Source: Ancylobacter radicis
Lineage (GTDB): Bacteria > Pseudomonadota > Alphaproteobacteria > Rhizobiales > Xanthobacteraceae
NCBI RefSeq assembly: GCF_018449475.1
Contig: NZ_JAHCQH010000015.1
Coordinates: forward strand, 744,001 to 808,000
Length of the DNA stretch: 64,000 bases
Reading direction: 5' to 3'
The notes under the pieces were generated by a model. The model was not told where the DNA came from. It ran no database searches and saw nothing but the letters and a program-made list of their open reading frames with translations. The first letter of the stretch is position 1. Each line of letters opens with the position of its first letter. Below are positions 13,530-46,756 of this stretch, piece by piece. The position numbers and the translations under genes are program-made.

Positions 13530-14195
13530 ATGATGAAACGACCTTTCCCGACGCGCGCCCGCCTGATGGCCGGTGCCTTTGGCGCGGCCGTTCTGTTGGC
13601 CGCCGCGCCCGCCTTCTCGCAGGAGGAGAATTTCACCGGCCAGCTGCTGACCGGCCTCGGGCTGGTCGCGCCGACGCCGCCTGACATCAATTACCGCGAG
13701 CGCGCGCCGCTGGTAGTGCCGCCCTCGGGCGACGTGCTGCCGCCCCCGCGCAGTGGCGACGACATCACCAGCAATCCGGCCTGGCCGAAGGATGAGGACC
13801 TCGTCCGCAAGCAGGCCGCCGCGAAGAACGGCAGCTCGCTCGACCCGTTCAGCGACCGTCAGGCGACCCGCACCCTGACGCCCTCGGAAGTCGCCCGTGG
13901 CATCAACACGAGTGCGGCGAGCCCGAACGCCCAGGCCATGGCCAAGAACAACGCCTCCCGCGAGGACTGGCTGCGTCCCAGCCAGACCGGTTTCCTCGGC
14001 TGGGGCAACAAGCAGGAAAAGCCGCTCGTGTTCGAGGGCGAACCGCCGCGCGAGGCGCTGTTCCAGCCGCCGGAAGGCCTGATGACCCCGGCGCCCGGCG
14101 CGGCCTATGGCGTGGTCGCCGAGCGCCCCGAGGACAAGGCGTGGAACCTGCCGGACTGGTTCAGCCGCACGCAGAAGAACAACGACCGCAATTGA
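13530..14195 (+). CDS. Exported envelope protein, DUF3035/BamF-like
   Basis: This 221-residue protein has an N-terminal signal peptide (hydrophobic AGAFGAAVLLAAAPA, cleavage near AFS-QEE). The segment YRERAPLVVPPSGDVLPPP resembles the core of DUF3035/BamF, a BAM-complex-associated lipoprotein of alphaproteobacteria. The position between lspA and paired M16 peptidase genes also matches the known neighbourhood of that family. Unlike BamF proteins, there is no Cys at the end of the signal peptide, so this copy should be soluble rather than lipid-anchored. The rest is proline- and charge-rich and probably disordered. The ATG at 13530 (or 13533) follows a GCAGGAGA motif. Family assignment is inference from context and one motif. 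Confidence 0.7.
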   Translation: MMKRPFPTRARLMAGAFGAAVLLAAAPAFSQEENFTGQLLTGLGLVAPTPPDINYRERAPLVVPPSGDVLPPPRSGDDITSNPAWPKDEDLVRKQAAAKNGSSLDPFSDRQATRTLTPSEVARGINTSAASPNAQAMAKNNASREDWLRPSQTGFLGWGNKQEKPLVFEGEPPREALFQPPEGLMTPAPGAAYGVVAERPEDKAWNLPDWFSRTQKNNDRN

Positions 14196-23145: not shown

Positions 23146-23170
23146 TGCGCGGGTTGCCCTCTCCCAACCC

Positions 23171-23273
23171 GTCATCCCGGCCGGAGCGCAGCGCCGATCC
23201 GGGATCGCGCGCCACTGCGGGTATTGCCAGACGATCCCGGCTCTCCGCGCTGACACGCTCCGGCCGGGATGAC
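23171..23273. repeat. Nested palindromic intergenic repeat (GTCATCCCGG family)
   Basis: An 18-bp perfect inverted repeat (23171-23188 and 23256-23273; arm GTCATCCCGGCCGGAGCG) encloses a second 9-bp pair CCGGGATCG (23199-23207) and CGATCCCGG (23232-23240). The whole 103-bp unit can fold into a branched hairpin. It lies between glcD and the deaminase and shares its arm with 18504-18531. It is a non-coding dispersed repeat and could attenuate or process the glc transcript. Confidence 0.8.
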
Positions 23274-23296
23274 GTCCTATGGGGACGGGGCGCGCG

Positions 23297-24712
23297 ATGA
23301 CCACCCTCCTCGTCCGCAACGCCACCGTTCTCGTCACGCTGGACGGCGCCCGGCGCGAGATCGCCGGCGGCGGTCTGTTCGCGCGCGACGGGATGATCGT
23401 CGAGGTCGGTCCGAGCGAGGCGCTGCCGGCCACCGCCGACACGGTGATGGACCTTGCCGGCCATGTGGTGCTGCCCGGCCTCGTCAATTGCCACCACCAT
23501 CTCGACCAGACGCTGACGCGCAATCTGCCGGCGGCGCAGAACGTGAACCTGTTCCGCTGGCTGAAGGCGCATTACCGGCTCTGGGCGGCGCGCACGCCGG
23601 AGGCCTCGCGCACCGCGACGCTGGTCGGCCTCGCCGAACTCGCGCTAAGCGGCTGCACCACCGCCTTCGACCACGCCTATGTGTTCCGCAATGGCTGCAA
23701 GGTCGACGACCAGATCGGCGCCGCCCGCGAGATCGGGATGCGCTTCATGGTCTCGCGCGGCTCCATGTCGCTCGGCCAGTCCAAGGGTGGCCTGCCGCCG
23801 GATGACTGCGTGGAGCGGGAAGAGGACATCCTCGCCGACTCTGAGCGCGTCATCGCCCGCTATCACGACGCCGCGCCCGGCTCGCTGCTGCAGATCGCGC
23901 TGGCGCCCTGCTCGCCCTTCTCGGTGACGCCCGGCCTGATGCGGGATTCCGCCGCCCTCGCCCGCGCCAAGGGCGTGCGGCTGCACACGCATCTGGCCGA
24001 GACCATCGACGAGGAACGCTACACGCTGGAGCGCTTCGGCAAACGGCCGGTCGCTTACATGGAAGATCTGGGCTGGCTGGGCGACGATGTCTGGTTCGCC
24101 CATGCGGTGCATGTGAACGATCACGAGATCGGCTGCTTTGCCGGCGCCGGCGTCGGCGTGTGCCATTGCCCCTCCTCCAATATGCGCCTCGCCTCCGGGA
24201 TCGCCCCGGTGAAGGCCTATCGGCGCGCGGGCGTGAAGGTCGGGCTCGGGGTGGACGGCTCGGCGTCGAATGACGGCAACAACCTGCTGACCGAGGCGCG
24301 CCAGGCCATGCTGCTGGCGCGGTTGCAAATCAGCCTGCGCCCGCCCGAGGGGCCGGACACCACGCTCTCCACCTCCGACCCCTCGCGCGACGCCGAATGG
24401 ATGAGCGCGCGCGAGGCGCTGGAGCTCGCCACGCTGGGCGGCGCCGCCGTGCTCGGGCGAGCCGACATCGGGTCGCTGGAGCCGGGCAAATGCGCGGATT
24501 TCTTCGCGCTGCGGCTGGATGATGTCGCCTTTGCCGGCGGGCTGTCCGACCCCGTCGCCGCCGCCCTGTTCTGCACCCCCGGCCCCGCCGCCTTTACCGT
24601 GGTCCACGGGCGCCCGGTGGTGGCGGAGGGGCGGATCGTCACCATCGACCTGCCGGCGGTCATCGCCGAACACAACACACATGCCGCGCGGCTCGCCGCG
24701 CTTGCGGAGTAG
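23297..24712 (+). CDS. 8-oxoguanine deaminase-like amidohydrolase
   Basis: This 471-residue amidohydrolase belongs to the TRZ/ATZ/guanine-deaminase group. The metal motif is NCHHHLDQTLTRNLP (His66/His68), with HTHLAE, HAVHV and GVDGSASND further on. The motif set, especially QIALAPCSPFSVT and CHCPSSNMRLASG, closely follows the Pseudomonas 8-oxoguanine deaminase family, which converts 8-oxoguanine to urate. Other heterocycle deaminations are possible. The ATG at 23297 gives the usual N-terminus; the ATG at 23279 overlaps the palindromic repeat region. Its 3' end is 3 bp from glcE, so it is co-transcribed with the glycolate oxidase genes, an uncommon arrangement. Confidence 0.8.
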   Translation: MTTLLVRNATVLVTLDGARREIAGGGLFARDGMIVEVGPSEALPATADTVMDLAGHVVLPGLVNCHHHLDQTLTRNLPAAQNVNLFRWLKAHYRLWAARTPEASRTATLVGLAELALSGCTTAFDHAYVFRNGCKVDDQIGAAREIGMRFMVSRGSMSLGQSKGGLPPDDCVEREEDILADSERVIARYHDAAPGSLLQIALAPCSPFSVTPGLMRDSAALARAKGVRLHTHLAETIDEERYTLERFGKRPVAYMEDLGWLGDDVWFAHAVHVNDHEIGCFAGAGVGVCHCPSSNMRLASGIAPVKAYRRAGVKVGLGVDGSASNDGNNLLTEARQAMLLARLQISLRPPEGPDTTLSTSDPSRDAEWMSAREALELATLGGAAVLGRADIGSLEPGKCADFFALRLDDVAFAGGLSDPVAAALFCTPGPAAFTVVHGRPVVAEGRIVTIDLPAVIAEHNTHAARLAALAE

Positions 24713-24715
24713 ACC

Positions 24716-26074
24716 ATGAGCGCCCTTATCAAGGAGCCAGCCTCCACCGAACGGCTCTGCCCGCGCGACGAGGCCGATGTGGTCGAGGCGGTGCGCTGGG
24801 CGGTCTCGAACGGGCGCACGCTCGATGTCGCCGGCTCGCGCTCCAAGGCCGGGCTCGGGCGCCACATCCAAACCGACGCGACGCTGGAGCTGGCGGCGCT
24901 TTCCGGCGTCACCCTCTATGAGCCGGAAGAACTGGTGCTGAGCGCGCGGGCCGGCACGCCCATCGCCGAGATCACGGCGCTTGTCGCCGCCTCGCACCAG
25001 ATGATGGCCTTCGAGCCGATGGATTACGGCCCGTTGTTCGGCCAGCCGGCCGGCGGGGGCACGCTGGGCGGGCTGATCGCCTGCAACCTTGCCGGGCCGC
25101 GCCGGCCGAGCGCGGGCGCGGCGCGCGACCATGCGCTGGGCCTGCGCGCCGTCTCCGGCCGCGCCGAGGCGTTCAAGGCGGGCGGGCGGGTGGTGAAGAA
25201 TGTCACCGGCTACGACCTGCCGCGCGGCCTTGCCGGCTCGCATGGCACGCTCGCCGCCTTCACCGAACTGACCATCAAGGTGCTGCCACGCCCGGAGACG
25301 GTGGAGACGCTGCTCATCCTCGGCCTCGACGAGGCGCAAGCCGCCAGCGCCATGAGCGCGGCCATGGGCTCCTATTACGACGTGTCCGGCTCGGCCCATC
25401 TGCCCGCCGACATCGCCGCACTTGTGCCAGCGGTGGCCGGGGCAGGGCGAGCGGTGACGGCGCTGCGGCTGGAAGGGGTGAAGCCGTCCATCCTGCACCG
25501 GCGCGGCAAGCTGGAGGAGATGTTGCGGGCGCGCGGCGAGCTGTCCTTCCTCAATGAGGCGGCCTCGCTCACCTTCTGGCAGGCGGTGCGGGATGTGGAG
25601 CCCTTCGCGGCAACTGTCACCTCTCCCCGTGGGGGAGAGGTCGGCGCGGGAACCGCGCCGGGTGAGGGGTTTTCGAGCGCGACTTCCCCCTCACCCCCCC
25701 CTCTCACCGTGGGGGAGAGGGAGAATATTCTCGACACCGCCCCCGCCATCTGGCGCGTTTCCGTCGCCCCCATGGCGGGGGCGGATGTGGTGGCGGCGCT
25801 GCGCCCGCTCGGCGCGCGGGCCTTTTATGACTGGGCCGGCGGCCTCGTCTGGATCGCCCTGCCCGATGGCACGCCGCGCTCCGCCGAGGTCCGTGCCGCC
25901 GTCGCGGCGACAGGCGGCGGGCACGCCACGCTGGTCCGCGCCAGCCTCGCGGCGCGGGCGGAGGAGGTGTTCCAGCCGCTCGACCCTGTCACCAAGGCGC
26001 TGGTGACGCGGATGAAGGATGGCTTCGACCCGGCCCGGGTGCTGAGCCCCGGCCGCATGTATGCGGGAGTCTAG
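24716..26074 (+). CDS. glcE: Glycolate oxidase FAD-binding subunit GlcE (with inserted repeat peptide)
   Basis: This 452-residue subunit of glycolate oxidase is about 40 residues longer than expected. The FAD-binding PCMH domain is recognisable (GQPAGGGTLGGLIACNLAGP, KNVTGYDLPRGLAGSHGTL). After residue ~301 the DNA contains a palindromic repeat (25619-25721) that stays in frame and encodes a Ser/Pro/Gly-rich insert of about 35-40 residues. The normal C-terminal domain (WRVSVAPMAG, FYDWAGGLVWIALP) resumes after it. The frame is intact, so the protein may still function with the extra loop. It is followed by glcF after 3 bp. Confidence 0.88.
   Translation: MSALIKEPASTERLCPRDEADVVEAVRWAVSNGRTLDVAGSRSKAGLGRHIQTDATLELAALSGVTLYEPEELVLSARAGTPIAEITALVAASHQMMAFEPMDYGPLFGQPAGGGTLGGLIACNLAGPRRPSAGAARDHALGLRAVSGRAEAFKAGGRVVKNVTGYDLPRGLAGSHGTLAAFTELTIKVLPRPETVETLLILGLDEAQAASAMSAAMGSYYDVSGSAHLPADIAALVPAVAGAGRAVTALRLEGVKPSILHRRGKLEEMLRARGELSFLNEAASLTFWQAVRDVEPFAATVTSPRGGEVGAGTAPGEGFSSATSPSPPPLTVGERENILDTAPAIWRVSVAPMAGADVVAALRPLGARAFYDWAGGLVWIALPDGTPRSAEVRAAVAATGGGHATLVRASLAARAEEVFQPLDPVTKALVTRMKDGFDPARVLSPGRMYAGV
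25619..25721. repeat. Palindromic repeat inserted in frame within glcE
   Basis: The element comprises a stem ACCTCTCCCC/GGGGAGAGGT (25619-25641), a second stem GGCGCGG/CCGCGCC (25643-25659) and a long-range pair GGGTGAGGGG (25660-25669) with CCCCTCACCC (25687-25696). It ends with a degenerate copy of the first hairpin, CCTCTCACC-GTG-GGGGAGAGG (25700-25720). From memory, the CCTCTCCCCGTGGGGGAGAGG motif is a widespread intergenic repeat in Rhizobiales genomes. Here it lies inside a coding sequence without breaking the frame. Confidence 0.8.
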
Positions 26075-39535: not shown

Positions 39536-40285
39536 TTATTCGGCGCGCCAGCCTTCGAGCCTTGTTACACGCGCGAGGAAGCCCGCGCTGGTCGGATGCG
39601 CAAGAAGCGCAGCATGTACCACATTTGCCCGCCCTAGCGCCAAGTCCAATTGTGCGCCCGGAAAAGCAACGACGCGGACGATCTCACGCCCCGCCGCTTC
39701 GCCGACCCGGCGGGCCAGCGCATCGAGTTTCGCCATGCCATCGGCCGCCGCGTCCGCCGCGTGCATCAGCCCCGCGACGGGCACCCGCCTCATGCCGGGA
39801 CGGGGCGCGGCGGATTGCAGCGCCTCGACGACCTTGGAATTGCCCGTCACCACCTGCCCGGCCTTATTGGCGAGGGCGAGGGCGGCGAGCGCATCCTTTT
39901 CGAGCAGCGCCTCCACGAGTTCGCAGAGACCCTCCTCGGCACGGCCCTGGCCGCGAAAGGCGCGGCTGAAAGCCTTCTTCTTCAACGCCTGCCGGAGCGC
40001 GCCCCGGTTGGCGGCGACCCAGGCGCCCCGGCCGGGAAGCCGGGCGGCGAGGTCGGGCACCACCGCGCCGTCGGGTCCGACGACGAAGCGGAGCATCTGC
40101 GCCACCGGCAGCACAGCGCGGGTGGCGAGGCATTGCCGTGTGGTCTCGCGGCGGACGGCCGCGGGACCGGCGTCGGTATCATCCGGCGCCCCCTCCGGGG
40201 CATCGGCCTCGGCATCAGGATCGGTCCCCGCAGCCCTTGCGGGATCCGGCCCCACGGGTCCGGCCTCGTCGTCCACCGTCGGCAT
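39536..40285 (-). CDS. YlxR (DUF448)/L7Ae-like RNA-binding protein
   Basis: This 249-residue protein matches the DUF448/YlxR domain (RQCLATRAVLPVAQMLRFVVGPDG, here cited in pieces: RQCLATRAVLP then RFVVGPDG) followed by an L7Ae/L30e-like domain (GQVVTGNSKVVEAL). Such fused proteins are usual between nusA and infB in Rhizobiales and probably bind RNA. The ATG at 40285 has GGAGG five bases upstream; the upstream in-frame GTG is not needed. The first ~45 residues are acidic and low complexity. Confidence 0.88.
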   Translation of the reverse strand: MPTVDDEAGPVGPDPARAAGTDPDAEADAPEGAPDDTDAGPAAVRRETTRQCLATRAVLPVAQMLRFVVGPDGAVVPDLAARLPGRGAWVAANRGALRQALKKKAFSRAFRGQGRAEEGLCELVEALLEKDALAALALANKAGQVVTGNSKVVEALQSAAPRPGMRRVPVAGLMHAADAAADGMAKLDALARRVGEAAGREIVRVVAFPGAQLDLALGRANVVHAALLAHPTSAGFLARVTRLEGWRAE

Positions 40286-46650: not shown

Positions 46651-46756
46651 TGCTTCGAGGCTGCCCTGGCGGGCAGCACCTCAGCATGACGGCCGTCGAG
46701 CCGTCCCCGTGTGCCGTCATCCTGAGGTGCTCGGGCGCAGCCCGAGCTCGAAGGAT
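46651..46756. repeat. Inverted pair of CCTCAGGATGAC-type repeats
   Basis: The left arm (46651-46693: CTTCGAG...GCACCTCAGCATGACGGC) is a diverged inverted copy of the right arm (46713-46756: GCCGTCATCCTGAGGTGC...CTCGAAGGAT). The right arm itself contains CTCGGGC-GCA-GCCCGAG, a small hairpin. From memory, GTCATCCTGAGGTGC is a recurrent intergenic repeat in rhizobial genomes. It lies between macB and purD and differs from the other two repeat families in this window. Confidence 0.72.

Follow-up and report, generated by a model that had tools for sequence, protein, structure and literature searches.

A dispersed palindromic repeat in frame within glcE of Ancylobacter radicis, and repeat-filled linkers in other conserved proteins of the genus

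The stretch of Ancylobacter radicis DNA analysed here (the window, 64 kb) contains a glc-like gene cluster in which glcE, encoding the FAD-binding subunit of glycolate oxidase, carries a palindromic element inside its coding sequence. The cluster and a neighbouring repeat copy of another family (type D, see below) are arranged as follows:

21649: FAD-linked oxidase of the glcD type
23170..23274, + strand: type-D repeat copy outside genes, lying between glcD and the amidohydrolase gene, 78% identical to the type-D query
23279-24712: amidohydrolase gene, between glcD and glcE
24716..26074, + strand: glcE, an open reading frame of 452 aa, host gene of the element
26078: iron-sulphur/cysteine-rich protein of the glcF type
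27845: asparaginase

Shorter stretches resembling types D, C and B are also present in the window, at 40162-40208, 46717-46756 and 14117-14145.

The product of the host gene matched the GlcE model NF008439 in two stretches (4e-78; 262.7 bits, below the cut-off of 284). Matches to solved GlcE relatives lay mainly in the FAD part, and a fold search returned FAD-linked oxidase relatives in general. The dN/dS of the glcE core was 0.19 and 0.20 when the A. radicis gene was paired with two element-free sisters, and 0.105 between these two empty sisters. These ratios point to purifying selection on the core; the higher values of the A. radicis pairings may reflect a slight relaxation. The conserved core and its dN/dS rule out that glcE is a pseudogene. 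It should be mentioned that the pairs were computed without two alignment rows (L051, L052), which sit in the glcE codon tree at the end of a branch 11 substitutions per site long; these rows are most likely one codon out of step, and nothing reported here rests on that tree, the comparison of linkers across the genus having used protein columns.

The element in glcE is built from inverted repeats, in the order hairpin, central stem, long arms, hairpin:

25617..25724, + strand: type-A palindromic element, head-to-head form, coding for residues 301-337 of GlcE
25619..25641: terminal hairpin H1 (inverted repeat 25619-25628/25632-25641), 10-bp stem and 3-nt loop
25642..25660: central hairpin of 19 nt (inverted repeat 25642-25649/25653-25660)
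25660..25696: long inner stem GGGTGAGGGG / CCCCTCACCC with a 17-nt spacer (inverted repeat 25660-25669/25687-25696)
25699..25721: terminal hairpin H2 (inverted repeat 25699-25708/25712-25721), a near-copy of H1 (95% over 21 nt)

A preliminary description of this DNA had placed a palindromic repeat with three stems here, in frame within glcE. The position is borne out, the reading frame of glcE runs uninterrupted across the whole element, and stem structures are indeed present; their number is four rather than three. The RNA fold of 25612-25728 reached -73.6 kcal/mol (z -5.0), a value equalled by 0/200 shuffles. When the 21-mer proposed in that description was searched with up to 3 mismatches, the window gave three matches at two places, both inside the glcE element, against 0.01 expected. 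A chance palindrome is ruled out by this match count and by the fold. No Rfam family reached its gathering threshold in the 64-kb window (the best weak match was sX13, with 23.4 bits against 50), and an Rfam RNA was rejected as the identity of the element.

The peptide read from the element, TSPRGGEVGAGTAPGEGFSSATSPSPPPLTVGERE, agrees with the Ser/Pro/Gly-rich loop of about 35-40 residues that had been anticipated: S, P, G, T, A or E make up 83% of the 35-residue insert. The linker segment measures 153 nt in A. radicis versus 51 nt in the element-free sister G014, a difference of 102 nt. In an AlphaFold2 model built from 37 sequences, residues 302-327 fell below pLDDT 50, and the block values from residue 291 to 350 ran 88, 41, 29, 41, 69 and 88. 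The insert is thus predicted to form a disordered loop between confident segments, namely a helix at 281-292 and a strand at 344-349. The earlier wording, which put the loop between the FAD domain and the C-terminal domain, proved loose as to domains, since FAD_binding_4 already ends at residue 151.

Type A is a dispersed repeat. Its unit consists of a hairpin, CCTCTCCCC-loop-GGGGAGAGG, adjoining the arm CCCCTCACCC, and units are often paired in inverted orientation, either head to head or tail to tail. In the A. radicis genome (4.2 Mb, 25 contigs) we obtained at least 35 matches, grouped by hand into at least 25 clusters; this is a lower bound, 40 of the 57 first candidates having been scored. 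The type was present in 27/30 Ancylobacter genomes and, with at most seven candidates scored per genome, in 39 of 121 genomes of the order, A. radicis included. No match to the Y1/RAYT transposase family (PF01797), whose presence marks RAYT-associated REPs, was detected in A. radicis; the control was positive in 5/14 genomes.

To describe the distribution of the insert, GlcE was compared in 30 Ancylobacter genomes including that of A. radicis (G000). Membership in the genus was set by named loci, and G005, G009, G016 and G028 agreed with loci named A. tetraedralis, A. polymorphus, A. amanitiformis and A. aquaticus. In 22 genomes the linker was short, with 25 or 31 codons over the segment compared, and these empty linkers have an ALPEGG-like sequence in common. 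The remaining eight had a filled linker. Five of them carried type A (G000, G002, G005, G020) or its probable relic (G016), and three carried, in the same linker, an unrelated CGTC-tagged repeat that we call type B (G009, G015 and, partly, G028). Two of the 30 glcE matches contained a stop, which lay before the start codon, in the upstream extension of the match. Outside the genus, an insert of comparable size was not seen in GlcE among 31 genomes and the 37 examined of 80 named loci: in 28 of these genomes the two flanking matches were at most about 30 nt apart, and G036, G039 and G041 gave weak matches at the level of paralogues. Of the named loci examined, 33 had short linkers and four long ones, all from Ancylobacter; these four belong to species already among the 30 genomes. 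The expectation that relatives would be without the insert was therefore confirmed both within the genus (22/30) and among the named loci (33/37).

Further in-frame copies were found in other genes of A. radicis, as had also been foreseen. Its cobN contains one type-A and one type-B copy in frame, and the CobN family PF02514 spans both inserts (residues 146-729 of L026:846-3038). A type-A copy is likewise in frame in a DNA ligase of the repair type (the 'cisplatin damage response' family TIGR04120) and in uvrC (TIGR00194, 2e-162). Thus two of the four host proteins are DNA-repair enzymes. Two of these features were placed as follows:

L026:2259-2355: type-B copy in cobN, in frame
L317:995-3049 (C13:243994-246048 of the A. 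radicis genome), - strand: uvrC with in-frame type-A element

The uvrC gene came to light as a host in a codon-score census of 118 loci of the A. radicis genome, comprising 178 merged element stretches of at least 30 nt; in this census copies are incompletely sampled, type B least completely. Nine stretches were flagged. Eight lie in glcE, cobN, the ligase and uvrC, and for the ninth, a type-C copy in ORF L173, codon scores were weak and Pfam gave no match; it was not counted as lying in a host gene. Hence 8/178 element stretches are in frame in supported genes, which fits the earlier characterization of the repeat as 'intergenic-type'; by cluster, the proportions were 4/25 for type A and, for type B, 1/30 of the loci fetched. 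In neither type were the elements more open than shuffles: type A left on average 3.0 of six frames open versus 3.6 for mononucleotide shuffles (16 copies), and type B 3.2 versus 3.4 (30 copies), so that a special openness in all frames was rejected. Since about half of the frames are open, survival in a gene requires only a stop-free frame and a length divisible by three.

Besides type A, three repeat families occur in the linkers. The type-B unit in the cobN of A. radicis reads CGTC + ATGGCCGGG + CTTGG + CCCGGCCAT + CCA and is accompanied by an inverted partner. By reading, type B shows the features of the CGTC-tagged REPs, head-to-head dimers among them, and type A does not, its stem ACCTCTCCCC/GGGGAGAGGT having 10 bp and its loop 3 nt. 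Types B, C and D have CGTCAT...ATGACG-like ends in common; CGTC ends are missing from type A. The A. radicis genome gave at least 77 matches to type B, 65 to type C and 47 to type D, partial counts from 40 of 223, 69 and 75 first candidates respectively, with many places, as for type A, counted on both strands. The type-D query was a copy directly upstream of cobN in G014 (L202), apart from the copy inside that gene, and linker copies of type D were compared directly with the A. radicis copies. At the matching place upstream of cobN in G028 (G028:C2:1213695-1213790) there is a type-D copy 88% identical to that of G014.

Across the 30 genomes, linker 1 of cobN was filled in 21 and linker 2 in 18, plus G013 with an assembly gap; the ligase linker was filled in ten. 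In G013 (L222) a run of 5 N inside the type-C copy splits the cobN reading frame, which cannot be read there; assemblies may break at these palindromes. For uvrC, three or more type-A arm motifs were counted in 15 genomes, one or two in eight (some of these may be due to chance) and none in seven; the linker was long or fairly long in all 30, with arm motifs in 23. The uvrC element forms a graded series across the genus, from intact copy to relic, which suggests an old insertion. Besides the two linkers, the CobN alignment had only two inner gappy regions of at least 15 columns, which were 18 and 15 columns long. The match to the solved CobN structure 9uk9 breaks off at residue 188 and restarts at 226, and cobN linker 1 thus has no counterpart in that structure.

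The families are distributed over the linkers in 11 family-by-linker combinations (five linkers of four proteins, four families). Types A and B occur in glcE, types A, B and C in cobN linker 1, type A in the ligase and in uvrC, while cobN linker 2 holds all four families. When 40 filled linkers were compared with the 118 A. radicis loci, the host copies of A. radicis itself being masked, each matched at least 32 loci, a number that is no count of family members, as palindromes match across families; the best identities were 73-100% over 38-133 nt. For cobN linker 2, identity to dispersed A. radicis copies was 83-87% for type B, 82-86% for type C and 74-97% for type D. The existence of empty and filled orthologues and of four host proteins supports the earlier suggestion that such repeats can insert into protein linkers.

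Filled linkers differ widely in the state of the repeats that they contain. The fold z of the linker, computed with 40 shuffles each and with flanks included, ranged from -10.3 (G002) to +0.7 (G016) in glcE and from -6.1 to +0.7 in uvrC. The strength of the palindrome has therefore been lost in some species with the frames still open, which speaks for passenger DNA that decays where it lies rather than for a hairpin or peptide under selection. In G015, cobN linker 2 contains CGTCATGACG, in which the two ends of a CGTC repeat are fused and which was found in no other of the 30 genomes, and cobN linker 1 contains a fused CCCCC-GAGGGG; we read both fusions as deletion scars. Several linkers hold more than one repeat: in cobN linker 1 a half type-A copy stands beside type B in G011 and G019, and a type-A arm beside type C in G010; in cobN linker 2 of G020, type B stands beside type C. 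The ligase linker of G016 (L241) contains three tandem 48-nt half-units of type A, which indicates that linkers also grow by tandem duplication. A perfect palindrome of 28 nt, ACCAACATCGGATGCATCCGATGTTGGT, was present in frame within the type-A copy of cobN linker 1 in G004 and G024 (L219, L228) and is possibly a fifth kind of repeat.

How often the linkers were entered can be bounded from below. In G000, G002 and G020 the type-A copies within glcE have the same orientation, reading frame and spacing. Their central hairpin is 19 nt long, as in all four glcE copies measured (with G005), versus 15 or 17 nt (not counting a leading T) in the 36 head-to-head copies from outside glcE in a set of 38. 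Moreover, the A. radicis copy is 87% identical to the glcE copy of G002 versus 81% to the closest dispersed copy of its own genome. On these sequence comparisons, the common spacing and the closeness to G002 are easier to reconcile with one old insertion, followed by loss or by exchange of alleles, than with separate gains. The tree, on the other side, scatters the glcE type-A species among empty ones, and simple loss would not restore the ALPEGG-like sequence that the empty linkers have in common. The pattern may be due to allele exchange, to an old insertion with loss, or to one subfamily having inserted repeatedly. The distance from arm to hairpin is often 12 nt in the coding copies (glcE, cobN, ligase) and 13 nt in 35/36 head-to-head copies outside glcE; the 12-nt spacing is a possible hint of selection.

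Fitch counts of family changes on the concatenated tree were 6 for glcE, 13 and 15 for cobN linkers 1 and 2 and 8 for the ligase, with states typed by hand and with a one-motif 36-nt linker (G005) and cobN linker 2 of G013 scored as empty. As the backbone of this tree is weak (several nodes at 41-60) and the glcE copies agree in spacing, we use only a minimum, in which each family entered each of its linkers once: two for glcE, three and four for cobN linkers 1 and 2, and one each for the ligase and uvrC, together at least 11. For the same two reasons, four separate type-A gains in glcE are not claimed. No clean empty/filled pair with target duplication and no exact insertion boundary was found in the linkers compared; the flanking codons differ too, and the insertion event itself is inferred.

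In our opinion, the stretch in glcE, a copy of the dispersed REP-like palindromic repeat of type A, very probably entered a flexible linker and has been tolerated by the host as passenger DNA. According to this scheme, a type-A copy would have entered glcE at the linker with a net length divisible by three and a stop-free frame; once tolerated, the palindrome would decay while the frame stays open. Insertion would occur elsewhere too and be removed by selection from most coding positions, linkers serving as refuges; loss would proceed by deletion within the palindrome, and the encoded peptide would have no required function. More tentatively, a few Ancylobacter linkers might be long-lived refuges that several families enter and in which they stack, decay and are deleted, repeat DNA supplying linker length and sequence and targeting at the DNA level perhaps adding to selection. 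That such targeting by itself explains the pattern, through an activity or a local structure left by earlier repeats that attracts new elements to the same spot, seems to us rather doubtful. Up to four families share one linker, copies are stacked in G011, G019, G010 and G020, and the 28-nt palindrome of G004 and G024 lies within another copy, all as a hotspot would have it; however, the same concentration would be expected if selection removed insertions from folded parts, we identified no target sequence common to the sites, and the search for a transposase gene, limited to Y1, found none.

The element could also be a domesticated module kept by selection, either because hairpins in its mRNA delay the ribosome between one folding unit and the next or because the peptide serves a function. 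The very stable fold in glcE, the position of the insert between folded segments, the spacing and frame common to three glcE copies and the 12-nt arm spacing, frequent in coding copies and rare in copies outside glcE, speak for this. We nevertheless consider it improbable, as 22/30 species do without the insert in GlcE, the same linkers are occupied by unrelated families that encode different peptides, the fold has gone in several filled linkers and the elements are no more open than shuffles. Equally hard to accept is that each linker received one ancient insertion that diverged in place into seeming families, a reading offered for RPE-4/6/7 in the part of the Rickettsia study accessible to us (PMC3767692). 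The ends common to types B, C and D, the spacing signature of the glcE type-A copies and the linker of uvrC, long or fairly long throughout and with arm motifs in most genomes as from one old insertion, would agree with it, but the 40 linker copies each match many dispersed copies of the A. radicis genome and would have had to converge on them, type A is without CGTC ends, and empty linkers exist within the same genus. An error of assembly or annotation, or a decaying gene, is extremely improbable: palindromes do break assemblies, as the N run in G013 illustrates, yet such inserts recur in several separate genomes with an open frame and a conserved core.

In-frame palindromic repeats have precedents in the literature, compared here from the accessible portions of the papers cited. 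According to the available text of Di Nocera et al. (2013; PMC3733652), CGTC-tagged REPs have an unpaired CGTC (or TGTC/CCTC) tag, a stem of 8-9 bp that begins with AT, a 4-5 nt loop and mostly a CCA tail, and lack a dedicated transposase. CGTC and GTAG REPs are mostly intergenic, with some inside conserved genes, often DNA repair genes such as those for excinuclease ABC and, in O. terrae, a DNA ligase; harmless residence in flexible linkers was already suggested there, and Starkeya novella, now Ancylobacter novellus, is listed among the REP-rich species. The repeats studied here are similar in being dispersed palindromes, some of them intragenic, that hit repair genes, and type B fits the CGTC description, so that part of the cobN findings may already be contained in the lists of that paper. 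Type A differs by its 10-bp stem, its 3-nt loop and the absence of either tag. In the same portion of that paper, different REPs at about the same site are described in one case, recB of Xanthomonas. Br-REP1 and Br-REP2 of Bradyrhizobium are likewise multi-stem repeats, from the same order, and Br-REP1 with its flanks forms three palindromes; they are intergenic, and the printed consensus, compared by eye, is unlike type A (PMC5082802, as accessible). In-frame MITE fusions, such as ERIC, YPAL of Yersinia, the 107-bp element of Neisseria and QMITE of Coxiella, are small repeats read through as protein too (PMC2229807, PMC5896051, in the parts available), while no target duplication was found at the Ancylobacter inserts. 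In the open-access literature, subscription papers and supplements aside, we found no description of a coding sequence that carries type A, nor of linkers that several families have entered in a single genus. As far as searched, both are new, the latter with empty sites in the same genus.

A further likeness, pointed out for Rickettsia in the preliminary description, is to the protein-coding palindromes of Rickettsia (RPE) and Wolbachia (WPE), which in the accessible text of PMC2229807 and PMC3767692 are palindromes of about 100-150 bp in frame in unrelated proteins at solvent-exposed sites. The likeness holds for behaviour: here too a dispersed palindrome is in frame in several unrelated conserved proteins (GlcE, CobN, the ligase and UvrC). 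The Ancylobacter host is free-living. Its linkers also show that conserved enzymes can gain new linker sequence from repeat DNA. The Rickettsia japonica study, in its available part, compared orthologues filled at the same place and left open whether hotspot insertions or one diverged insertion account for the copies at one gene site (PMC3767692), whereas in Ancylobacter empty and filled linkers occur within one genus. The genus is free-living and culturable, the same linkers occur in it empty, filled, mixed and decayed, and its repeat families can be separated through their dispersed copies, which makes the choice between hotspot and common origin testable.
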